DNA from: an uncultured Bacteroidales bacterium
Lineage (GTDB): Bacteria; Bacteroidota; Bacteroidia; Bacteroidales; Muribaculaceae
Length of the DNA: 42,621 nt
Direction of reading: 5' to 3'
NCBI GenBank assembly: GCA_902777835.1
Contig: CACYVC010000020.1
Coordinates: 1 to 42,621 of the forward strand
Below, in pieces: positions 29,348 to 42,086 of the stretch. Made by a program: the position numbers and the translations under genes. Every line of letters starts with the position of its first letter. Position 1 is the first letter of the stretch. Below the pieces are notes generated by a model, which did no database searches, had not been told where the DNA came from, and worked only from the letters and a program-made list of their open reading frames with translations.

Positions 29348-30034
29348 ATGAAACGTACAGCTTTGCTATTGCTTTTTGTCGTGTCGATATTTGTGGCTTG
29401 CGCAGCGAATGAATTATTGCATTTTGGTGCAAGTAATTATGACGGATGGATATATACTCAAAGTGTAGTAGAACTTAACAGCAGTAATATTAGTCAGGAT
29501 AATATCAATCTTTATTGGGATTATGCGCTAATTTCACCTGAAGTTACAACACATAATGTGAATAGTATTAAGGTGGATGTTACAGGCCACACTAATGGTT
29601 ATCAAAATGCAGAATACAGCAATACGTTGGGACGGGTATCTGTTCAGCTGATTGATGATAACAACGATGTGCTCAAGGAGAAGAAGTACACGTTTAGCGA
29701 TAAAAAGCGTGACCGAAATTTTGAAGTGTGTTTTGATATCACCGATATTGACAACACACCATTCAGGTTGCGCCTCGCATGCTGGAATGCCAACATTGAG
29801 TCTCGCTTTTCGGTTAAAAAAGTTATTATGTCGGTCTATGAATATAACTTAAGTGGCGTGGTTGGTGATGTGAACAACGACGGTGTTGTCACTGCCGCCG
29901 ACATTACTGCCCTCTATGACTTGCTGCTGAACAACAATAGCAGCAATGTGGTAACTGGTGATGTGAACAATGACGGCATTATAACTAGCGCTGATATTAC
30001 AGCAGTTTATAGTGTTCTGCTGGAAGAGAGCTGA
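29348..30034 (+). CDS. Exported protein with C-terminal dockerin-like domain
   Basis: 228 residues. Signal peptide or lipoprotein signal 1-19 ('LLFVVSIFVACAAN', with a possible lipobox VAC). The middle (about 22-165) is beta-rich without a family I recognise. Residues about 171-228 form a dockerin-like pair of calcium loops ('GDVNNDGVVTAADITALYDLLL' split by a linker from a second 'GDVNNDGIITSADIT'), near-identical to the dockerins at 31679 and 32712. It shares a transcript with the PKD gene and ends at a bidirectional terminator. Confidence 0.85.
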   Translation: MKRTALLLLFVVSIFVACAANELLHFGASNYDGWIYTQSVVELNSSNISQDNINLYWDYALISPEVTTHNVNSIKVDVTGHTNGYQNAEYSNTLGRVSVQLIDDNNDVLKEKKYTFSDKKRDRNFEVCFDITDIDNTPFRLRLACWNANIESRFSVKKVIMSVYEYNLSGVVGDVNNDGVVTAADITALYDLLLNNNSSNVVTGDVNNDGIITSADITAVYSVLLEES

Positions 30035-31678: not shown

Positions 31679-32608
31679 TTAGTTGTCTTCTAGCAAGATG
31701 CTATAAACAGCAGTAATATCGGCGGCAGTGATGATGCCGTCACCAGTCTGGTCACCATTAACGATATTGGTGGAGTCAGTATTGAGCAACCAGTCGTAAA
31801 GTGCAGTAATGTCTGCAGCAGTAACTACGCCATCACCGTTAACATCGCCAGGAATTGGGGTGTCGCCACCACCGGCAGGAACAGTGTAGAGCAGTTTGCC
31901 AGCGAGGTTGTAAACGCCTCCAGCCACATACTCAAGGTCGGCAGTCTGGGTAGTGCCATTATTGAAGATGATGCCTGTTGGGCTGTCGCCTTCCACGATG
32001 TCAGGACCTATCCACTGGTAAACTGGGTTGCCATCGGTTGTGTTGCCAATCAGGGTGATAGGGTCACCAGGCCAAGCGCCGCTTGTGGTGAAGTTGGTGC
32101 CAGTAGTGCCGTTCCAAGCCCACACATTGCACTTAGTCCAACTTAAGGGAGCAATGAAGTAAGCGAACTCCTTGCCTTCAACATAAACCACTGTGTTAGG
32201 CAGAGTGTTTATGTCGAAGCCAGTGTCGGTGATATATGTGCTAGTAACATCCTCATAATCGCCCTCTTCGGGGTCGAAGGTGTAGAATGCAGTGCCAGTG
32301 ACACCACGTATGTCTTCGGTTTTAACAAAAGGTTCTTCGCCATCAATGCCACCATCGTTGAAGATGATGTTGATAGCATCCTCCTCAAAAGTTTGGGTTA
32401 ACCATACCAGACCATCAACGGTTACGTAGGTTTGAGCCTCATCCATCTGAGTGCCAGGCCATGCGCCATTAAGAGCAGTGCCAGCGCCATCCCATACATA
32501 GAGGTAGGGTGCGTCACCAGTACTAGTGCGCACATTAACAGTTACAGTAGCGTTAGCTGTAATAGCTACGCATGCGATTGCAATAAGTAAAGTAGAGATT
32601 TTCTTCAT
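31679..32608 (-). CDS. Secreted starch-binding protein, two CBM26-like modules and a dockerin
   Basis: 309 residues, no catalytic domain. Signal peptide 1-20 (TANA). Two CBM26-like starch-binding modules: 21-120 ('PYLYVWDGAGTALNGAWPG') and 138-245 ('CNVWAWNGTTGTNF', 'SGAWPGDPITLIG', 'SPTGIIFNNGTTQTADLEY'). The W-x-W and WPG residues match the modules of the amylase upstream. A dockerin-like domain closes the protein (254-309, 'GDVNGDGVVTAADITALYDW', 'GDGIITAADITAVYSILL'). It has its own promoter at 32662-32693 but also lies just downstream of the amylase gene. It likely binds starch at the surface or in a complex. Confidence 0.88.
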   Translation of the reverse strand: MKKISTLLIAIACVAITANATVTVNVRTSTGDAPYLYVWDGAGTALNGAWPGTQMDEAQTYVTVDGLVWLTQTFEEDAINIIFNDGGIDGEEPFVKTEDIRGVTGTAFYTFDPEEGDYEDVTSTYITDTGFDINTLPNTVVYVEGKEFAYFIAPLSWTKCNVWAWNGTTGTNFTTSGAWPGDPITLIGNTTDGNPVYQWIGPDIVEGDSPTGIIFNNGTTQTADLEYVAGGVYNLAGKLLYTVPAGGGDTPIPGDVNGDGVVTAADITALYDWLLNTDSTNIVNGDQTGDGIITAADITAVYSILLEDN

Positions 32609-32711: not shown

Positions 32712-35700
32712 CTAATCGCCTAATAATATGTTATAAATCGCAGTTATATCGGCAGCAGTGACCTCCCCATCGCCAGTGATATCGGCGTTAAAACTGTAGG
32801 TGTTGCTGGTGCCTAACAGCACGTTGTAGATCTCGGTGATATCAGCAGCTGTGACCACTCCGTCGAGGTTTACATCACCAACGGGGAAGGTCACGATGCC
32901 ATTCGCGTTGTAGAAGGCACCATTTTCAAAAGTGAGGTTGGCGGTTTGTGGGTTACCGTGATTGCTGAAGATGATGCCAGTGGGGATGTCGTCGCCCACA
33001 GTGCCTCCGTCCCACTCCCAGATATCGAGACCGTTGTATAGTTTGCTTCCCACAAGGTTGCAGGCTTGTCCTGGCCAAGTGCCGCCTGTGTAGTTCTGGT
33101 TGCCCAGCTGAGCATTCCATGCCCAGCAATAAATGGTGCTAGTCCAAGTGGCTGGCGCGAAGAAGAACGCGTGCAGTTTTTGTGCATGACTTGAGCGTAT
33201 CCTGTAGGTGCGTGTGATGGTATTCTTTACCTCACCATTGTGCAGCACACCAGCGCGCAGAGTAGTGGTGTGGTTGAAAGTGAGTGTCACGCAGCCAGTA
33301 GCTCTAGGGCTAGAGGCGGTGGGCGCTGTGCCATCGGTGGTATAGACGATGGTGGCGTTGGCGAACGAAGAAGTTACTGTCACCGTCACTTGGTCGATAT
33401 ACTCACCGCTTTCCTTATCCACGCTCAGTGTTGCTACACTGGGATCTACGGGCTCCTGTTCGGTGATGGTGCGGTTATACACACCATCGATATAGTAGCC
33501 GTGGTTGACAAAGGTCAAGTTAGAGGTCTGGTTGCTGCCGCTTTGGCTGAAGATGAGCCCTGTGGGCATATTATTGGCGGGGTATTCTCCGTCATAGGTC
33601 CACTTGAAGATGAGTCGTGTGCCGTCTTCGGTCTTGCCCATGAGTTTGGCGTTCTGGCCTGGCCAGCTGCCACCAGTGAAATTGGTGCTGTTGTTCCACA
33701 CCCACAGAGTAATGAGGGTGTTGGATGTCGATGTCTCATAAAATACGCTAAGCTCGTCATCTCTAATGGTGGGGGTATATACTTCCAGGTCGTCGATGTC
33801 AATACCGCCACCACTGCTGCTGCCCCCGCTCACGTACACGGTGTTAGGGTCGCCCTCTTCCTCGGTGCCGTCGTAATCGAGCAGGGTAGGGGTCACCTTA
33901 TTGGTTGTGTAAAGGAATGGTCCGTCCTCACCTATCTTTCCAGGACCGTTGAGCACATAAATGCGCATATTGCCTTTGCCGCTGAACGAAGGTGTGGTGA
34001 GGGTGCCGTTGGTCACGGTGATGGTGGTGCCGGTGATGACGTCGGTGTAGGTGCCGTTGAGGACGCCAGTGAAAGTTGCACTGGTATTGAGGGCAATGAG
34101 TGCATAGCTGTCGATGTCGCCATTGGTATAGCGGCGCCTGAAGGCATAGCCACCGCTCGACGAGCATCCACTCTTGGTGTATTGTCCTTTGCGCAAAGCG
34201 GGCACAGCTGCGCGTATCTTGTTAAGGCGCTGCATGTGCTTCACCAGTGGATGGCTCAGTGTCGCTGCTACGTTGCCGTTAGCATTGGTATATTCTCCAA
34301 AGTCGGTTGTGGTGACGTCTCCCTTGAGATATCCGCCATAGTAAGCACGCCCGCTGTTCTTAAGGGAAATGTTGGTGCCCTCATCTATGCGCATGCCCTT
34401 GCGAAACTCAATCTCTCCACCCTGGAAGAGGCAAGGTATACCGCGCATGGTGAACAACAACGATAGATTCTCAGCCCACTGGTCGGTACCGCCGTTGAAA
34501 CGGTTGAAGCTGTCAGGACCATAATCGTGGCTCTCCACATAATTGACGTTGAAAGTGGCATCGTTATAGAGGTTGTCTTTGTCAAGTACACCCCACACGC
34601 GTCCAGCGCTCTGGAAGTTCCAGTGCACGGTAAAGTCAATTACATTGAGCCCACTGGCATTGCTGTAGTCGGGAGTGTGGTAGTTGTTGCCATCGAGCAT
34701 GGCATTGTTGCTCCTGGGTTGTGCGCTCTCACTCAGGTTGGCGTTGTGCTCAGCGAGGCACAATTTTTGGTTGTCGAGGGTGGCGGGGTCGGTGCTCTCA
34801 AACACCGTGACGCTATTCCAGTAATTAGGGTCGTTGTTCCACTGGCCGAGCAGCGATGCGTCGCTTTGCCAGGTGTAGAAGTAAGGCGAGAGTGAAGGCT
34901 GGCCACGATAGGTGACATCATTGAAACGCGCGCACACTTCGGCAAACATGTAGAATGGGCATTCGTTTAAACGCTTGCTCTTGTACTGCTCGCCAAGTGC
35001 TTTGAACGCTGGCACAAAGGCGGCGTTGAACGCTAGTCGCGAGATGTGGCCGCCAGTGTCGATGCGGAAGCCGTCAACCCCCATCTTTATGAACTCGCCA
35101 TAGCAATCGATAAGGTAGTTGTAGGTTTGAGGGTTCTCGGTGTTGAGGTCCACGCAGTCGCCGGCAATCTGCGCCCACCAGCGGTTAGGCTCGTCCCAGT
35201 TAAAATTGCCGTAGTGGTGCCATAGATTGTGGTTGTCGTGGTTAACACCATCGGTGTTTTTCATTTTGGTGAGTCGGTCGTTGTACTGTGCGCTGCCGCC
35301 CATGTTGCTGTAGTTGTCTTGAAGAAGTCCGCCCTGTGAGATGGTGTAAGGAACCATACACTGGCTCATGTCGCTCTGTGGCACGCTATAGTCGCGGTTG
35401 AAGAGTTTGCACAAGTTCTCCTCTCCAAAGTTGCCAGTGTGGTTAATAACGATGTCGAGTATCACTTTCATGCCGCGAGCGTGAGCAGCGTCTATGAGGT
35501 CCTGGAACTTCACATCTTCGCTTTCGAGACGGCGGTCCACATTACTCATGTCTAAAGCGTGATAGCCATGATAGTCATATCCAGAGGCATTTTGCACTAC
35601 TGGAGTAATCCAAATGGCTGTGAAACCCAGTGCCTTGATATAGTCGAGCTTCTCAATGAGACCTTTAAAGTCGCCGCGCCACTCTGGATCTTGATTGGCG

Positions 35701-35906
35701 ACGTTTCCTGCGTGATTGCCGTCCCAACAATAGGTGTTGTTGCTGGCGTCACCGTCGTAGAAGCGCGTCGTCATTGCAAAGTATATTGTCTCGTCACGAA
35801 AGTCGGTGCGCCCACCCACAAAGGTCGTGGATGCCCAACTCGCAATAAAAACAATGGCAAACAATGCCAATGTCAACAATCTTATATTAAAGCTCTGTAT
35901 ATTCAT
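32712..35906 (-). CDS. Secreted GH13 alpha-amylase with CBM26-like modules and dockerin
   Basis: 1064 residues. Signal peptide about 1-26. The GH13 barrel covers about 34-660 with all four regions: 'DIVINH' (151-156), 'GFRIDTGGH' (nucleophile Asp283), 'MFAEVC' (acid/base Glu323) and 'VESHD' (His460, Asp461). Then come CBM26-like module 1 (about 712-805, 'LWVWNNSTNFTGGSWPG'), a chitobiase-C-type domain (about 822-903, 'TIVYTTDGTAPTASSP'), CBM26-like module 2 (about 907-1003, 'YCWAWNAQLGNQNYTGGTWPG') and a dockerin-like domain (1009-1064). It should hydrolyse starch outside the cell. A -7 box and a LacI-type operator candidate lie upstream. GH13-CBM26-dockerin is the layout known from the Ruminococcus bromii amylosome. 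Confidence 0.93.
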   Translation of the reverse strand: MNIQSFNIRLLTLALFAIVFIASWASTTFVGGRTDFRDETIYFAMTTRFYDGDASNNTYCWDGNHAGNVANQDPEWRGDFKGLIEKLDYIKALGFTAIWITPVVQNASGYDYHGYHALDMSNVDRRLESEDVKFQDLIDAAHARGMKVILDIVINHTGNFGEENLCKLFNRDYSVPQSDMSQCMVPYTISQGGLLQDNYSNMGGSAQYNDRLTKMKNTDGVNHDNHNLWHHYGNFNWDEPNRWWAQIAGDCVDLNTENPQTYNYLIDCYGEFIKMGVDGFRIDTGGHISRLAFNAAFVPAFKALGEQYKSKRLNECPFYMFAEVCARFNDVTYRGQPSLSPYFYTWQSDASLLGQWNNDPNYWNSVTVFESTDPATLDNQKLCLAEHNANLSESAQPRSNNAMLDGNNYHTPDYSNASGLNVIDFTVHWNFQSAGRVWGVLDKDNLYNDATFNVNYVESHDYGPDSFNRFNGGTDQWAENLSLLFTMRGIPCLFQGGEIEFRKGMRIDEGTNISLKNSGRAYYGGYLKGDVTTTDFGEYTNANGNVAATLSHPLVKHMQRLNKIRAAVPALRKGQYTKSGCSSSGGYAFRRRYTNGDIDSYALIALNTSATFTGVLNGTYTDVITGTTITVTNGTLTTPSFSGKGNMRIYVLNGPGKIGEDGPFLYTTNKVTPTLLDYDGTEEEGDPNTVYVSGGSSSGGGIDIDDLEVYTPTIRDDELSVFYETSTSNTLITLWVWNNSTNFTGGSWPGQNAKLMGKTEDGTRLIFKWTYDGEYPANNMPTGLIFSQSGSNQTSNLTFVNHGYYIDGVYNRTITEQEPVDPSVATLSVDKESGEYIDQVTVTVTSSFANATIVYTTDGTAPTASSPRATGCVTLTFNHTTTLRAGVLHNGEVKNTITRTYRIRSSHAQKLHAFFFAPATWTSTIYCWAWNAQLGNQNYTGGTWPGQACNLVGSKLYNGLDIWEWDGGTVGDDIPTGIIFSNHGNPQTANLTFENGAFYNANGIVTFPVGDVNLDGVVTAADITEIYNVLLGTSNTYSFNADITGDGEVTAADITAIYNILLGD

Positions 35907-36198
35907 GCTGTATGGTTTTTTTGTGCAAGCAAAGTTAAAAAAATATAGAAAGATAATTAAATGAATGAGACTGTGATGAAAAGAATAATCCGTGCAAACG
36001 TTTACAATTTAGTAGCATTTGACATCTTGTTTGATTATCATTATTCTTTAAAAAATGGCGTAAAAAAGTGGCTGGTTGTCTAAAAAAAGAATTATTATGC
36101 CATATTTTTTTGGTTAATAATGATTTTTATTCTATCTTTGCAAAAAAAGAAAGAAGAATAATTTTAAACTCAAAAAAACCCTTAAAACAGAACAAACG
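35907..36198. promoter_or_regulatory. Divergent control region between the amylase gene and argR
   Basis: Minus strand: TAACTTTG (35937-35930) just before the amylase start. Plus strand: TTTG (36109-36112) and TATCTTTG (36133-36140), 20 bases apart, for argR. Between them are the palindrome TGCAAACGTTTACA (35993-36006), which fits the TGnAAnCGnTnnCA form of LacI-family operators, and a 9-bp inverted repeat AAGAATAAT (35981-35989) with ATTATTCTT (36040-36048). Confidence 0.7.
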
Positions 36199-36693
36199 AT
36201 GAAGAATAAAAAAGAACGCTTACAGTTGATAGTTAATCTCATCAAGAAGAACTGTATTGGAAGCCAAAACGAATTAGCCGAAATGCTAGAGAAGAATGGG
36301 TGCAAGGTGACTCAGGCAACCTTGTCGCGCGACTTGAAGTCGATGAAAATCACCAAAGTGGCAACAAATGATGGCGGATACATGTATATCATCCCCGATA
36401 ACAACGACCTGCAAGACCATCTGCTGATGAGCGGTCGCAACAGCCTCACGGTGCAGCAGCAAGTGGGGTTTATTTCGATAGCCCTTTCAGGCCACATGGC
36501 TGTGATAAAGACTCGCAATGGCTATGCAGCGGGTCTTGCCTACGACATCGACATGAGTCGCTCAGATGAGGTTCTTGGCACTATAGCAGGCGCCGACACC
36601 GTGTTTGCCATCATGCGTGAAGACATCTCTCATGAAGATGCTCTGAGGTTCTTCTCAAGGTTTGTGCCTCTCGATAAGATGCAAATTAAATAA
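36199..36693 (+). CDS. argR: Arginine repressor ArgR
   Basis: 164 residues. The N-terminal winged helix (about 1-70) has 'RLQLIVNLIKKNCIGSQNEL' and the recognition segment 'ATLSRDLKSMKI'. The C-terminal arginine-binding, hexamer-forming domain has 'MAVIKTRNGYAAGLAYDID' and 'VLGTIAGADTVFAIMRE', the latter carrying the Gly-Ala-Asp-Thr of the ligand site. It represses arginine biosynthesis genes when arginine is bound. In Bacteroides it commonly precedes argG, argC and argD; here only an ArgC-like protein without catalytic residues follows. Confidence 0.95.
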   Translation: MKNKKERLQLIVNLIKKNCIGSQNELAEMLEKNGCKVTQATLSRDLKSMKITKVATNDGGYMYIIPDNNDLQDHLLMSGRNSLTVQQQVGFISIALSGHMAVIKTRNGYAAGLAYDIDMSRSDEVLGTIAGADTVFAIMREDISHEDALRFFSRFVPLDKMQIK

Positions 36694-36717: not shown

Positions 36718-37620
36718 ATGATAGACATAGGAATTACAGGTGGTGAGACTAAAATTGCCGGTGAACTGGTCAGGTTGCTGATCAATCACCCTGATGCAAG
36801 TGTTAAATGGGTGAGTAGTCATTCTGAGCATGGCAAACTGGCGAGAGTACACAAAGGTCTGATAGGTGAGTGTGACTTGGATTTCAGCGAACCTGTTATC
36901 GACGATGTGGAGTTGATATTCAACTGCGACCCATTCGATAGCCCTCTTTGCGACGATGCTATAGCTAAGAACGACAAACTCAGGGTTATTGAGTTGTCGC
37001 GCGGCTATGGATTTGTCGAGGGAGGTAGCATGTATGGCCTGTGCGAGATAAACCGCAAGTTTATGGTGCACGACTGCTACGGTTATGTGCTTATACCCTC
37101 GGCCGAGGCAATGGCAGTGCTGCTGGCTATAGTGCCGCTGGCCAACAAACACATGCTCAAAGGTGATATCAATGTGACAGTTAATTTCAACAACTGCTTT
37201 AACAATGATATAAATGTAAATTCTATAAAACAGGAAATTTTGACTGTGGCAAAGGCATTAGACAGTGACTTTGCGGGAGCAGTAAACATAAAACAAGAAA
37301 GTGGTGCAACAACACGCGGACTTGTGGCTCATGTAGAAGTTTCGGCTCAAGCCGATATCGACAGTATAAAAGACCTATACAACGAATACTACGATGACCA
37401 TAATTTCACATTTGTTGTAAACCAGCAGGTGGAAGATGCCGATGTGACAAACACCAACAAATGCCTTCTCAACCTTGCCGTTGAAGACGATAAGCTGCAT
37501 ATAACATCGGTTATTGACGCTCTGCTAAAAGGCTCGGCTGGCAATGCTGTGCATGTAATGAATCTGCTGTTTGGGTTACACGAGAAAGCAGGACTCGCCC
37601 TCAAGGCACAAGTTTTTTAA
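36718..37620 (+). CDS. ArgC-derived protein lacking catalytic residues
   Basis: 300 residues, homologous end to end to Bacteroidales N-acetyl-gamma-glutamyl-phosphate reductase: 'GELVRLLINHPDASV', 'YGLCEINR', 'RGLVAHVEV', 'NTNKCLLNL' and 'VIDALLKGSAGNAVHVMNLL'. The nucleophile motif NPGC is replaced by IPSA (126-129, Cys to Ala). The segment with S-G-(S/T)-GAG and the catalytic His (H-x-H-x-PEI) is gone, leaving 'NFNNCFNNDINVNSIKQEI', so the protein is about 20-45 residues short. The dinucleotide loop GGAGYTAGEL-type is changed to GGETKIAGEL. The frame is intact and it sits 24 bases after argR, so it is probably kept for a non-catalytic, perhaps regulatory role (inference). Confidence 0.85.
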   Translation: MIDIGITGGETKIAGELVRLLINHPDASVKWVSSHSEHGKLARVHKGLIGECDLDFSEPVIDDVELIFNCDPFDSPLCDDAIAKNDKLRVIELSRGYGFVEGGSMYGLCEINRKFMVHDCYGYVLIPSAEAMAVLLAIVPLANKHMLKGDINVTVNFNNCFNNDINVNSIKQEILTVAKALDSDFAGAVNIKQESGATTRGLVAHVEVSAQADIDSIKDLYNEYYDDHNFTFVVNQQVEDADVTNTNKCLLNLAVEDDKLHITSVIDALLKGSAGNAVHVMNLLFGLHEKAGLALKAQVF

Positions 37621-37711: not shown

Positions 37712-38191
37712 ATGTCAGTAAACAAAGTTATTCTATTAGGAAATGTGGGACGCGATCCAGATGTTCGTTATCCGTCGCAAGGACAGACTGTTGCCTCGTT
37801 CCCCTTGGCCACTAGCGAGAGAGGTTATACCACGTCGTCGGGGAATCAAGTTCCTGAGCGCACCGAGTGGCATAACATCGTGATGTGGGGACGCAATGCC
37901 GAAGTTGCAGAGAAATACATTCGCAAAGGCACTAGATTGTTTATTGAAGGCCGCCTGCGCACCCGCAACTGGGAGGACAAGAACAAGATTAAGCGTTATG
38001 TGACCGAGATATACGTCGATTCGTTTGAGATGCTTGGTGGGGGGCAGAAAGGTGGAGAAACCACTCCTGTTAATAACCAGGCAGCGACTCAGCAACCCGT
38101 GCAACCTGTTCAAGCAGCGCAGCCTGTTCAACCCGTACAGCCCGTTGAGCAGAACAATACCACCGCCGAGGGCGACGTGCTTCCTTTTTAA
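37712..38191 (+). CDS. ssb: Single-stranded DNA-binding protein
   Basis: 159 residues. The OB-fold covers 1-108: 'NKVILLGNVGRDPDVRYP', 'VASFPLATSER', 'ERTEWHNIVMWGRNAEVAEKYI', 'FIEGRLRTRNWEDK'. A Gln/Pro/Val-rich linker built on 'QPVQPVQ' repeats (about 125-148) leads to the acidic tip ending VLPF, a variant of the usual DDIPF that docks replication and repair enzymes. It binds and protects single-stranded DNA as a tetramer. A heptad array lies directly upstream. Confidence 0.95.
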   Translation: MSVNKVILLGNVGRDPDVRYPSQGQTVASFPLATSERGYTTSSGNQVPERTEWHNIVMWGRNAEVAEKYIRKGTRLFIEGRLRTRNWEDKNKIKRYVTEIYVDSFEMLGGGQKGGETTPVNNQAATQQPVQPVQAAQPVQPVQPVEQNNTTAEGDVLPF

Positions 38192-38430: not shown

Positions 38431-38503
38431 GATTCGCTAGCTCAGTTGGTAGAGCACAGCACTTTTAATGCTGGGGTCTTGGGTTCGAGCCCCAAGCGGA
38501 TCA
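38431..38503 (+). tRNA. tRNA-Lys, anticodon UUU
   Basis: 73 bases. Acceptor arms GATTCGC and GCGGATC pair with one G-T; the D-arm has GCTCAGTTGG; the anticodon stem CAGCA/TGCTG holds the loop CTTTTAA, giving anticodon UUU; the T-arm has GGTTCGAGC. The 3' CCA is not fully encoded (ACC follows). A mobile island begins directly after the tRNA, so its 3' end is a likely integration site. Confidence 0.96.
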
Positions 38504-38509
38504 CCTTCC

Positions 38510-38556
38510 AAATCAGTCAATCGGCTAATAATTAGCTTGTTGGCTGATTTTAGTTT
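38510..38556 (+). terminator. Terminator after tRNA-Lys
   Basis: AAATCAG (38510-38516) pairs with CTGATTT (38544-38550), with inner pairs CAA/TTG and GCTAA/TTAGC, followed by a T-rich run. Confidence 0.75.
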
Positions 38557-39258
38557 TGGGCAATCCCCATATAAATCCCCATATCGTGGTAGATTTAGGC
38601 GCTTCTCATACATCATGTCAGCACAAGGCCAAATATATTAACATTCTTTAATCATATTAAATAGTGCCATAATCTGTCTTGGATGGTTTCTCTACACATT
38701 ATATATATTATATATATATTGAGTTCCTTTTTCAATCATAATTCAATGATGGTGAATTAAAGATATATGCGAGACTTATGTCTACACGAGAAATAAGAAT
38801 GCATGAGTGGTGCATTATAAACTATAGTCATATTAGTTTTATGTTTTATTTATCAGCACATTACATCAAAACTGTGATGAAATATGTACTATTTTAATTA
38901 CGCAAACCTGTTAAATTATATTAAATACGCAACGACTTACCCATATCAAAAATCCGAAGTGTTCCAAAGTTTCCAAAATGTTCCAAAATGATAAAAAATG
39001 GTATTTTACAGATTGATAGAAAATGAAACTTTGATTACAATAATGATATCAGATTATTATTAGTTTTACTAACTCATTATAAAACAAGATATTATTCTGC
39101 ATCATTTTTGTCTTTTATTTTTCGGACCTAATTATATAACTTTGCAAAGTCCGAATGATGATGGACTGACAAGGACAATTGTCGAGAGCCTGATTCTGAA
39201 GGACACAAGTTAACGAGGGTTGTCCCCCTCTTTTAATCAACCTTAAATCTATTAAATT
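38557..39258. other. Non-coding left end of the island, tandem repeats and leader of the HTH gene
   Basis: No gene seen in about 700 bases. Contents: an 11-bp direct repeat AATCCCCATAT (38562-38572 and 38574-38584); AT-only tracts near 38700-38720; three TTCCAAA units spaced 9-10 bases (38962-38990); inverted arms TTCGGAC (39121-39127) and GTCCGAA (39149-39155) around a -7 box TAACTTTG (39137-39144); then a roughly 100-base leader with GAGGG/CCCTC (39215-39230) and an alternative GGACA/TGTCC pairing before the HTH start. Confidence 0.65.
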
Positions 39259-39567
39259 ATGTCTTATAATTTAAATCTTAGCGATTTCATTGGCAGTAAT
39301 GTTAGCATTCAAGTGAAAATTGAAGACCTTAAAGAATTCGCAAACATGCTTATGCTTGGTGCCAAGAGCATCGCTCGTGAGGAAGCCGAGGCAGCAGCCA
39401 GGGCTGACCAGCTATTAACTATCGATGAGGCAACAAAGTTGTTGTCAGTATCAAAGATGACCCTTCACCGCTGGGACCACAACGGTATCCTCAAGAAGGT
39501 GGAGATCGGTGGCAAGCGTCGTTATCGCAAGAGCGACATCGAGCGTCTAGCGGGGTGTAAACTATAA
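39259..39567 (+). CDS. Excisionase-like helix-turn-helix protein
   Basis: 102 residues. The N-terminal half is a helical extension with an acidic, Ala-rich stretch ('ARAEAAARAD'-like, residues about 40-54). The C-terminal half is an HTH_17/MerR-type excisionase fold: 'LLTIDEATKLLSVSKMTLHRWDHNGIL' with 'GGKRRYRKSDIERL' (about 55-98). In Bacteroidales mobile elements such proteins bind the attachment region to favour excision or regulate element genes. It is followed after 8 bases by the DUF3987 gene and preceded by an operator-like inverted repeat. Confidence 0.88.
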   Translation: MSYNLNLSDFIGSNVSIQVKIEDLKEFANMLMLGAKSIAREEAEAAARADQLLTIDEATKLLSVSKMTLHRWDHNGILKKVEIGGKRRYRKSDIERLAGCKL

Positions 39568-39575
39568 TCTATTCC

Positions 39576-40868
39576 ATGAAAAACACTCCATTTGACCCCA
39601 GCTCAGGCAGAGTCCGTCTGAATCAGGAGGCAAAATTGCCAACAGACGGACTGCCTGAACCGGTGCAACTGTACATCAAAGAGATTGTACGTGTGTACCA
39701 TTGCCCTATTGAGTTTGCTATTGTCGCTGTTTTCAGTGTCATATCTTCGGCTGTAGGAAAACGTGTCTTGATTACAGACGGCAAATACACCAACCCTCTC
39801 ATGCTTTGGTTTGTCAATGTCGCAATAAGTGGCTCAAACAAAACTCAGCCTGTGAAGGAGGTGCTTCGTCCTCTGCGAGAGATAAACAAAGAGAACTATC
39901 AGATTTATGAGAGGGAATATAACGAATGGAAATCCAACAAAGAAAGAGATGAGATAAATCAACCAAGATTCAATCAACTTCTAGTTGGTGACTGCACTGA
40001 GGAAGCCCGCTTAAAAATCCTGCAATTCAGTTCTCATGGCATTCTAGGATATTATCCAGAAGTGAAGGGATTCTTCGACGATTCTGAACGCTACAACAAG
40101 GGAGGATTTGTCGATAAACTGCTAAGGATGTTTGACGGTGATGATGTGTATCTCAACCGAAAGGGAGAAGAGCGCCCCGTTATCCTCAACAAGGTGTTCA
40201 TGAACATTCTCGGTGACATCCAACCTGGACTTCTAAAAGCCACTTTTGGAAGTCCGCAGTTCATGGAGAACGGATTAAACCAACGTTTTCTCTTCACAAT
40301 GCCCAAGATCTTCGAGTTTCCTGAGAGAGAGGTTCAATCAATGAAGCTCGAACTCGTTCAGGCTTGGATTGACGCAGTGAAATTTCTCTACAGATTGGAT
40401 TTCACTGACTGGGGAATCATATCGCTATCTCTTGGAGCAGACGCACTCTACACTGAATACTTCAACAATATTCAGCGTAAAAAGGCAGAAATTAAAGAGA
40501 CAACAGGTGATGGTTATATATTGTCGGTATACAGCAAACTGCAGATACAGGCTCAACGCCTTGCCGGAATAGTACACATGATGGGGTTGATAAATCACCC
40601 TGCATATTTCAACTACCGTTTTGTGGCTGAAGCAGAGATGGAATATACAATCCGATGCATGGACTACTTCGAGCAGACTGCAATTGAGGTATATTGTGAA
40701 ATATGTGGAGGGTGTCCTGCAGGTTCAAAGCAAAACCTAACACAAGCTCAGATAATCCGCGATTTCAACAAGACAATTCCGATTGTCAATCTGACTAAGT
40801 TTGCTGAAGGAATTGGCAAGAACAAAGGATATGTCTCAAAAATCCTCAAACCTGCCAAGAATGATTGA
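39576..40868 (+). CDS. DUF3987-family protein of mobile elements
   Basis: 430 residues. DUF3987 proteins are found on Bacteroidales mobile elements near primases and have a helicase/ATPase-like core. The core begins with 'DGLPEPVQLYIKEIVRVYHC' and 'AIVAVFSVISSAVGK', followed by 'NVAISGSNKTQPVKEV', a weak Walker A form (SGSNKT), and 'GILGYYPEVKGFFDD' near a Walker B-like position; 'QRFLFTMPK' is another family motif. The C-terminal 'VNLTKFAEGIGKNKGYVSKIL' looks like a winged or HTH end. The missing canonical lysine context leaves ATPase activity open. It probably helps element replication. Confidence 0.85.
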   Translation: MKNTPFDPSSGRVRLNQEAKLPTDGLPEPVQLYIKEIVRVYHCPIEFAIVAVFSVISSAVGKRVLITDGKYTNPLMLWFVNVAISGSNKTQPVKEVLRPLREINKENYQIYEREYNEWKSNKERDEINQPRFNQLLVGDCTEEARLKILQFSSHGILGYYPEVKGFFDDSERYNKGGFVDKLLRMFDGDDVYLNRKGEERPVILNKVFMNILGDIQPGLLKATFGSPQFMENGLNQRFLFTMPKIFEFPEREVQSMKLELVQAWIDAVKFLYRLDFTDWGIISLSLGADALYTEYFNNIQRKKAEIKETTGDGYILSVYSKLQIQAQRLAGIVHMMGLINHPAYFNYRFVAEAEMEYTIRCMDYFEQTAIEVYCEICGGCPAGSKQNLTQAQIIRDFNKTIPIVNLTKFAEGIGKNKGYVSKILKPAKND

Positions 40869-41153
40869 AACTCATAATCTGTTGAAACGTCAACACTGAA
40901 AAGCGCCTTAACACACTGTCAAGCAGCGGTTATCAACCTATTTCAGCGTTGACTTTCTCTTGAAATGGCATCTGATTATCAATCATTTAGAAAGACTGAG
41001 ATTATCAACAATGTTGACAATCATACAATACAATACAATGTAATCTAATTTATCAACACAGAATTGAAGCTAACACTCTGAAAAGCAACAACATGCTGTG
41101 TGGTTTCAAGTTTCCGTTGATATTGAAGTTTTTTTATCTTAATTATCTATCAC
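40869..41153. other. Repeat-rich gap, candidate replication origin
   Basis: Four TTATCAAC/T boxes (40930, 40976, 41002, 41050; two extend to TTATCAACA, close to the DnaA box TTATnCACA), a hairpin GTTGA-AACG-TCAAC (40881-40894), three tandem ACAAT units (41025-41039), and two copies of an AACACT-(CT)-GAAAAGC motif (about 40892 and 41072). No gene. It lies between the DUF3987 and primase genes. Confidence 0.55.
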
Positions 41154-42086
41154 ATGGGAAACATTCAAATTAATAATTTATCTTACAATATGGTTGAGCA
41201 AAACAATATACCTTATTTAGACCGTATGGTCAGTGTTTACAATAATGTGTACGGAAAGGAGAAACGTGAAATCAAACTGCGTGAGTTCCTTTTCTGCATG
41301 AGTGAGAAACACAAAGAGCAGATCATGCGTATGCGTTATTGCGGCGACAAGGATGTTCGAGCTCAATTGAAGAAGCAACTTCCTCAAGCCACAATCAGTG
41401 GTGTGTTCCTGGGACCTCGTAAGGCAGAGGAACAGACCTATCACAATGGTCTTCTCTGCATCGATATCGACAAAAAGGACAATTCTGACGTGACAAATTT
41501 CGAGAATTTGAAGGAGAATATACTCTCTCGATTTGAAGAAATCCTTTATGCAGCTCACTCAGTCAGTGGAGAAGGATACTTTGCAATCATCCCTCTAAAG
41601 TATCCAAAGCTTCATGTCCGCCAGTTCCGTCACTTGGAACAGGCCTTTGCCAAACTTGGTATCATCATCGACCACAACTGCAGTGACGTGAGTCGTCTAC
41701 GCTGTATCAGCTATGACTTTGCTCCGTATGTTAACGAGAACGCAATCCCATACGATGGTGTTTACGAAGAACCGAAACCATCCTTTCGCCCAGTGAATCG
41801 CAGAAACTTTGTGGATGACACTGACGAGAGAGTTTTCATGGCTTGTGAGGAAATAAAACGGAGACACACAGACATGACGGATAACTATGCCGACTGGGTA
41901 AGCATAGGCCTTGCTCTAGCATCGTTAGGCGAACAAGGGCGTGACTACTTCCATATCGTAAGTGAGCAGAATCCCAAGTACGATCAGCATGAGACAGACA
42001 AAAAGTTTGATGGTTTCTTGAGAAGTAGCAGTAGAATCACGATAGGCACCTTCTTCCATTACTGCAAGATGCATCGCGTGTTGTAA
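41154..42086 (+). CDS. BT4734/BF3469-type primase (VirE N-terminal fold) with PriCT-like domain
   Basis: 310 residues. The archaeo-eukaryotic primase-like core has 'NGLLCIDIDKKDN' (metal-binding D-x-D), 'AHSVSGEGYFAIIPL' (S-G-x-G) and 'DHNCSDVSRLRCISYD', the pattern of BT4734/BF3469 VirE-N proteins. The C-terminal part ('YADWVSIGLALASLG', 'KKFDGFLRSSSRITIGTFFHYC', about 235-308) is a PriCT_2-like domain. It likely primes replication of the element. Length is shorter than full primase-helicase proteins, so the DUF3987 protein upstream may supply the helicase part in trans. Confidence 0.88.
   Translation: MGNIQINNLSYNMVEQNNIPYLDRMVSVYNNVYGKEKREIKLREFLFCMSEKHKEQIMRMRYCGDKDVRAQLKKQLPQATISGVFLGPRKAEEQTYHNGLLCIDIDKKDNSDVTNFENLKENILSRFEEILYAAHSVSGEGYFAIIPLKYPKLHVRQFRHLEQAFAKLGIIIDHNCSDVSRLRCISYDFAPYVNENAIPYDGVYEEPKPSFRPVNRRNFVDDTDERVFMACEEIKRRHTDMTDNYADWVSIGLALASLGEQGRDYFHIVSEQNPKYDQHETDKKFDGFLRSSSRITIGTFFHYCKMHRVL

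Follow-up and report, generated by a model that had tools for sequence, protein, structure and literature searches.

The described protein closest to the one considered here is ArgC, the N-acetyl-gamma-glutamyl-phosphate reductase (TIGR01850; 1vkn), whose nucleophilic cysteine lies in an NPGC motif. Two further systems invite comparison. HisZ is a regulatory pseudoenzyme of an amino-acid pathway which activates an enzyme of that working pathway, and yeast Arg5,6 is an ArgB-ArgC precursor for which a DNA-binding side role has been reported and which keeps its activities. Here we analyse an ArgC homologue, designated ArgC2, which is encoded directly downstream of argR in a stretch of 42,621 nucleotides (contig CACYVC010000020.1 of an uncultured Bacteroidales bacterium of the family Muribaculaceae), referred to as the window in its full length:

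36718..37620, plus strand: ArgC2, an ArgC-fold protein of 300 residues in a clean open reading frame, without the catalytic Cys, the His segment and the middle glycine of the NADP loop

We propose with moderate confidence that ArgC2 is the positional orthologue of argC, kept as a folded, non-catalytic pseudoenzyme which most likely binds another protein, with ArgR as the candidate partner in the window's genus. It departs from ArgC in the absence of Cys, His and NADP-loop glycine, in a score below the family cut-off, and in its setting, the window genome showing no argG or argH match. Like HisZ, it would be a retained, catalytically dead enzyme homologue; unlike that of HisZ, its pathway is mostly gone from the window genome. 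Arg5,6 may serve as a precedent for a protein that includes ArgC and has acquired another role, although it keeps its activities. In the accessible parts of the open-access literature (PMC9026213 included) we found no report of an ArgC lacking the Cys from Muribaculaceae and, as far as these searches reach, ArgC2 appears to be undescribed.

Loss of the active site

Both semialdehyde-dehydrogenase domains of Pfam, the NAD-binding and the dimerisation domain, pass their cut-offs in ArgC2 (39.0 versus 27 and 27.7 versus 26 bits), and the ArgC fold is confidently recognised from the sequences. The argC equivalog TIGR01850 scores the protein at 101.5 bits, below its curated cut-off of 233.6. Comparison with true ArgC bears out the motif losses described in the initial annotation. 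Residues 126 to 129 read IPSA where true ArgC has NPGC, and the nucleophile Cys is present in none of 59 ArgC2 sequences of the genus; the residue at its old position is A, P, N, S, D, G, E, T, K, Q or M. The NADP loop, GGAGYTAGE in true ArgC of the family, reads GGETKIAGE in the window protein, its middle glycine being found in 4 of the 59 genus sequences compared to 49 of 49 true ArgC sequences. The segment STGAGxKPG...HxSWR...YKxFxHQHxxEI is mostly deleted, and the positions of its HxH motif are occupied by N and I, hence neither His is there. Among the 59 genus sequences the first of these His residues is seen in five and the second in none, while 48 of the 49 true ArgC sequences have both and the remaining one shows a gap. 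Since residues of the NADP loop and the substrate loop have been lost along with Cys and His, it is unlikely that ArgC2 still senses the old ligands, which speaks against the idea of a sensor of an arginine intermediate.

Conservation and selection within the genus

In the following, G denotes a genome, g a genus and L a sequence stretch that was read. A homologue of the window protein occurs in 59 of 61 genus genomes; three of these (G004, G031 and G040) have true ArgC alone, whereas the Cys-less form is found in the other 56, none of which has Cys at the nucleophile column. In view of this prevalence a sequencing error can be dismissed. No orthologue with restored Cys exists among these 56, and in the genus loci read a Cys beside argR is confined to G040, where GNAT, argG and argC are intact as well (here and below, the names gltX, kdtA, GNAT, OTC and ssb are presumed from the sequences, without a family search). 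In G009 neither argR nor ArgC2 was matched, the latter having been searched with a single sequence instead of a profile. More than one ArgC homologue is present in only four of the 61 genomes (G022, G040, G043 and G046); in G022, G043 and G046 a true ArgC belongs to a GNAT-argG-argC-argD-OTC-argB operon and the Cys-less copy lies elsewhere.

In 55 of the 56 ArgC2 loci argR is located directly upstream on the same strand, G043 being the exception. The spacing ranges from -8 to 52 nucleotides and is negative in 24 of the 55 loci; gene starts were set by homology, which leaves any overlap of only a few bases approximate. The two genes may well be co-transcribed. An ssb gene follows at most 322 nucleotides downstream of ArgC2 in 53 of the 56 loci, including G043.

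For the window protein and eight close relatives the ratio of non-synonymous to synonymous substitution rates (dN/dS, Nei-Gojobori) amounts to 0.033 to 0.129 in the 33 finite ones of 36 pairs, and to 0.023 to 0.090 in the finite pairs of ArgR; the ArgC2 ratios are rough, as dS approaches saturation, yet far below 1 and thus remote from the value near 1 expected of decay. Together with the presence in 56 of 61 genomes and the recognisable fold, they uphold the earlier view of ArgC2 as selected rather than decaying. Combining an enzyme fold, lost catalytic residues and purifying selection, ArgC2 has the traits which define a pseudoenzyme and, judged by its sequence, is presumably inactive.

Arginine biosynthesis in the window genome

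A search of the whole window genome (2.89 Mb, 90% complete) revealed no ArgC over the TIGR01850 cut-off. True ArgC exceeds this cut-off in only 6 of the 61 genus genomes, which, for this genome and most of the genus sample, speaks against the suggestion that ArgC2 assists a true ArgC from another locus. Matches to argG are found in seven genus genomes (E < 1e-63; none over the curated cut-off) and to argH in six (E <= 1e-30), the window genome being in neither group. As the pattern runs through the genus, incompleteness of a single genome cannot explain the missing genes. The check for a second argC, argG and argB proposed in the initial annotation thus yields no true argC or argG, and the best argB-like match falls below the argB cut-off and is devoid of catalytic motifs. 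Judged by argC, argG and argH, the bacterium is probably an arginine auxotroph. It probably comes from a rumen or gut; several named relatives are from ruminants. The ArgB homologue is placed as follows:

C26:55957-56733 of the window genome (L235:1483-2259, L237): ArgB homologue adjoining prfB, conserved throughout the genus and stripped of catalytic motifs

At least two of the KxGG, HGGG, R66-, N158-, D162- and K217-like features are lost in 33 of 34 genus sequences of this protein. The only intact one belongs to G040, the genus genome found with an intact argR-GNAT-argG-argC locus. With a dN/dS of 0.042 to 0.119 (21 pairs) and an intact fold, ArgB resembles ArgC2 in being kept dead; to our knowledge, it is unusual that two consecutive pathway enzymes are retained in this state in one genus. 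As a side observation, the ArgB homologue of L254 (G005:C26) is part of a 537-residue open frame, possibly a fusion, and in L089 (G040:C179) GNAT and argG form a single open reading frame of 601 residues, likely a fusion too.

Origin of ArgC2 in the family

The family sample comprises 119 genomes from 30 genera. The ArgC2 profile matches some ArgC homologue in 116 of them, including all 92 of high quality, and true ArgC exceeds the cut-off in 86, a count which may include a few high-scoring ArgC2 proteins (g7, G153). The order gltX-kdtA-argR-GNAT-argG-argC is found in genomes of g6 and g24, and argR-GNAT-argG-argC-argD-ssb in g14, g21, g28, g5 and Coprobacter. With ArgC2 in place, g13 and g24 show gltX-kdtA-argR-ArgC2. 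Within the window's genus, G012 and G029 have gltX-kdtA-argR-ArgC2-ssb and most remaining genomes argR-ArgC2-ssb, an order shared by g2, g25 and g30, whereas g9 and g29 have argR-ArgC2. Without argR it is gltX-kdtA-ArgC2 in g4, g8 and g17; g7 and g20 show gltX-ArgC2, and in the stretches of g3, g16 and g22 none of these neighbours stands beside ArgC2. These orders suggest an ancestral gltX-kdtA-argR-GNAT-argG-argC-argD-ssb locus in which ArgC2 holds the place of argC and argG is gone. ArgC2 is thus the former argC, which many genera retain at its original position. As previously noted, no argG, argC or argD follows ArgC2 among the open reading frames read in the window.

Among the ArgC sequences viewed together with their neighbouring genes, Cys is retained in all 28 beside argG and in all 21 of a second operon described below, compared to 8 of 114 ArgC2 sequences, seven from g7 and one from g3. 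The Cys-less ArgC is more widespread than first noted, Cys-less sequences stemming from at least 15 of the 30 sampled genera, a lower bound as the other 15 were only partly read. Both Cys states coexist within g3, g13, g24 and g25. The best tree (96 sequences, with a selection from the genus and three second-operon sequences among them, and with long branches) implies five changes of Cys state, three of which are forced by starred branches, or seven losses if Cys was never regained; a first tree of 125 sequences implies two, one of them forced. Many independent losses are not upheld, as a single Cys-less clade is not rejected by the approximately unbiased (AU) test (p 0.129, log-likelihood difference 37.8).

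The second arginine operon, GNAT-argG-argC-argD-OTC-argB (L180-L193, L090-L094, L171), occurs in many genera and lacks ArgR. Its ArgC groups in the tree with sequences of G040, g26 and g10, so a spread or relocation of this operon inside the family is conceivable.

ArgR and its relation to ArgC2

36199..36693, plus strand: argR, 164 residues with both ArgR Pfam domains, 24 nucleotides upstream of ArgC2

The clean frame of ArgC2 directly downstream of argR is as originally described. Both ArgR domains score well over their cut-offs (79.4 and 63.9 versus 27 and 25 bits), and the protein misses that of TIGR01529 (121.6 versus 130.45). Where AhrC (1f9n) reads GTICGDDT, the window protein reads GTIAGADT. 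The Asp pair of the GDD motif belongs to the arginine site of ArgR. Throughout the family GAD, GSD, GTD or similar replaces GDD in nearly all sequences read. Because intact-ArgC operons share this change (L177-L179, L215-L225, L228), it is not tied to ArgC2 and is ruled out as the mark of a special pairing.

Evolutionary distances of ArgR and ArgC2 covary beyond those of SSB and PrfB (partial r 0.75, permutation p 0.0005, 27 genus genomes). With SSB as the only control the value is 0.86 (54 genomes); it is 0.88 without the window's clade, 0.77 without a 27-sequence clade and 0.80 without both. For comparison, ArgC2 and SSB given PrfB yield 0.20 (p 0.02), and ArgB and ArgR given SSB and PrfB 0.11 (p 0.10).

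Surroundings of the locus

37712..38191, plus strand: ssb-like gene downstream of ArgC2, its product presumably SSB
36133..36140, plus strand: TATCTTTG, within a stretch conserved upstream of argR, a look-alike of the Bacteroidota -7 promoter element, which we take to be TAnnTTTG
35993-36006: TGCAAACGTTTACA, between argR and the divergent amylase-like gene
32712-35906: amylase-like gene, 1064 residues, divergent from argR

At the place of TGCAAACGTTTACA, most of 17 aligned argR upstream regions contain the LacI-type palindrome TGCAAACGTTTGCA, which is probably an operator of the divergent amylase-like gene. A clear ArgR box is not seen by eye in the aligned regions, and no regulon search was made. 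Secreted-looking proteins encoded at 29348-30034, 31679-32608, 32712-35906 and L235:2494-3153 end in GDVNGDGxVTAADITxxYxxLL repeats, which resemble dockerin modules. Further downstream, 38431-42086 comprises a tRNA-Lys followed by open reading frames of 102, 430 and 310 residues; these sizes recur after ssb in L040, and frames of 305, 105 and 245 to 246 residues take this place in L037, L039 and L041. The region looks like a putative mobile element situated at the tRNA.

Possible roles of ArgC2

In the scenario we prefer, another, ArgR-less arginine operon would have taken over in some lineages, or the pathway would have been lost, whereupon GNAT, argG and argD left the old locus and argC remained. 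The remaining argC would then have lost its catalytic and NADP-binding residues, while purifying selection held the folded protein. ArgC2 would most likely act by binding another protein via the ArgC scaffold, which is intact. The best candidate partner within the window's genus is its operon mate ArgR, which ArgC2 might tune or stabilise in a cell that requires arginine; where a genus has lost ArgR, ArgC2 would do something else.

Several observations weigh against this reading. The covariation of ArgR and ArgC2 vanishes inside the 27-sequence clade (partial r 0.003), and since linked genes share history, it is support rather than proof. The synonymous distances (dS 0.85 to 2.1) are nearly saturated. 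All seven ArgC2 sequences of g7 keep the Cys. In G016 argR is present without an ArgC2 homologue (one sequence, rather than a profile, served as query), and in G031 and G004 argR adjoins ssb without ArgC2. Six genus genomes (G001, G008, G022, G028, G034, G046) show one stop within the aligned stretch; in five of them the frames still span 288 to 310 residues and only the last residues are missing. Finally, 13 of 20 named ArgR-less family genomes keep a Cys-less ArgC2:

G063, G067, G075, G076, G079, G081, G091, G094, G095, G097, G098, G100, G111

Seven of these (G075, G076, G079, G081, G091, G098, G111) contain a single ArgC homologue and no ArgB match, so ArgC2 stands alone there. The modulation of ArgR proposed in the initial annotation is thus backed by adjacency and covariation in the genus, yet it cannot be the sole role. 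As ArgC2 persists where ArgR was lost, its core function would be independent of ArgR, and its position next to argR may be a relic of the former operon.

It is doubtful that ArgC2 is a specific co-regulator which would bind to ArgR or the ArgR operator and serve as effector in place of arginine or an intermediate. The adjacency to argR, which extends to genomes of g2, g9, g13, g24, g25, g29 and g30, the covarying distances and the absence of the leading Asp of GDDT from most ArgR proteins of the family are in line with such a function. However, ArgR-less genomes with Cys-less ArgC2 occur in g4, g8, g9, g16, g17, g20 and g22, and the GAD change, seen also in ArgR of intact-ArgC operons, is not tied to ArgC2.

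A different enzymatic activity which needs no Cys is improbable. In its favour, twenty-five ArgC positions are retained in at least 90% of the Cys-less sequences, seven are newly conserved (D26, V117, F185, H228, F232, C249, H279), and VH after R(K/R) is found in 56 of 59 genus sequences. Yet the old nucleophile position is highly variable, the NADP loop is lost, and H228, C249 and H279 are not novel, as 31 to 38% of true ArgC sequences already have them.

There is a slim chance that ArgC2 and the equally dead ArgB form a relic kinase-reductase complex. The motif losses, low dN/dS and intact fold of ArgB would fit, but co-evolution of the two proteins is unsupported (partial distance correlation given SSB and PrfB 0.03, p 0.34), among the 61 genus genomes 11 contain ArgC2 but not this ArgB and two show the reverse, and in other genera ArgC2 is encoded in genomes that yield no ArgB match.

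That ArgC2 is a slowly decaying, functionless remnant is largely refuted and very improbable. It evolves fast (mean distance 0.87 versus 0.45 for ArgR), and besides the six genus genomes mentioned above, three of g4 (G091, G130, G172) have a stop in the matched stretch; against this stand the dN/dS of 0.03 to 0.13, the prevalence in the genus and the confidently recognised fold. A sequencing or assembly artefact is refuted by the 59 genus sequences, the 15 genera and the many different residues at the old Cys position, even though most named relatives are metagenome assemblies.

Implications for the family

Going further, one may imagine that ArgC has an ancestral second, non-catalytic role in Muribaculaceae which outlives the pathway, and that ArgR, ArgC2 and ArgB form a module reporting arginine supply in auxotrophs, an extension we consider rather unlikely. 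Within the family, loci range from a working operon to an ArgC that is dead and yet conserved, a natural series in which intact relatives can serve as controls and a non-catalytic role of an amino-acid enzyme becomes directly testable. In addition, annotation by homology alone can label arginine-requiring members of the family as "ArgC positive".
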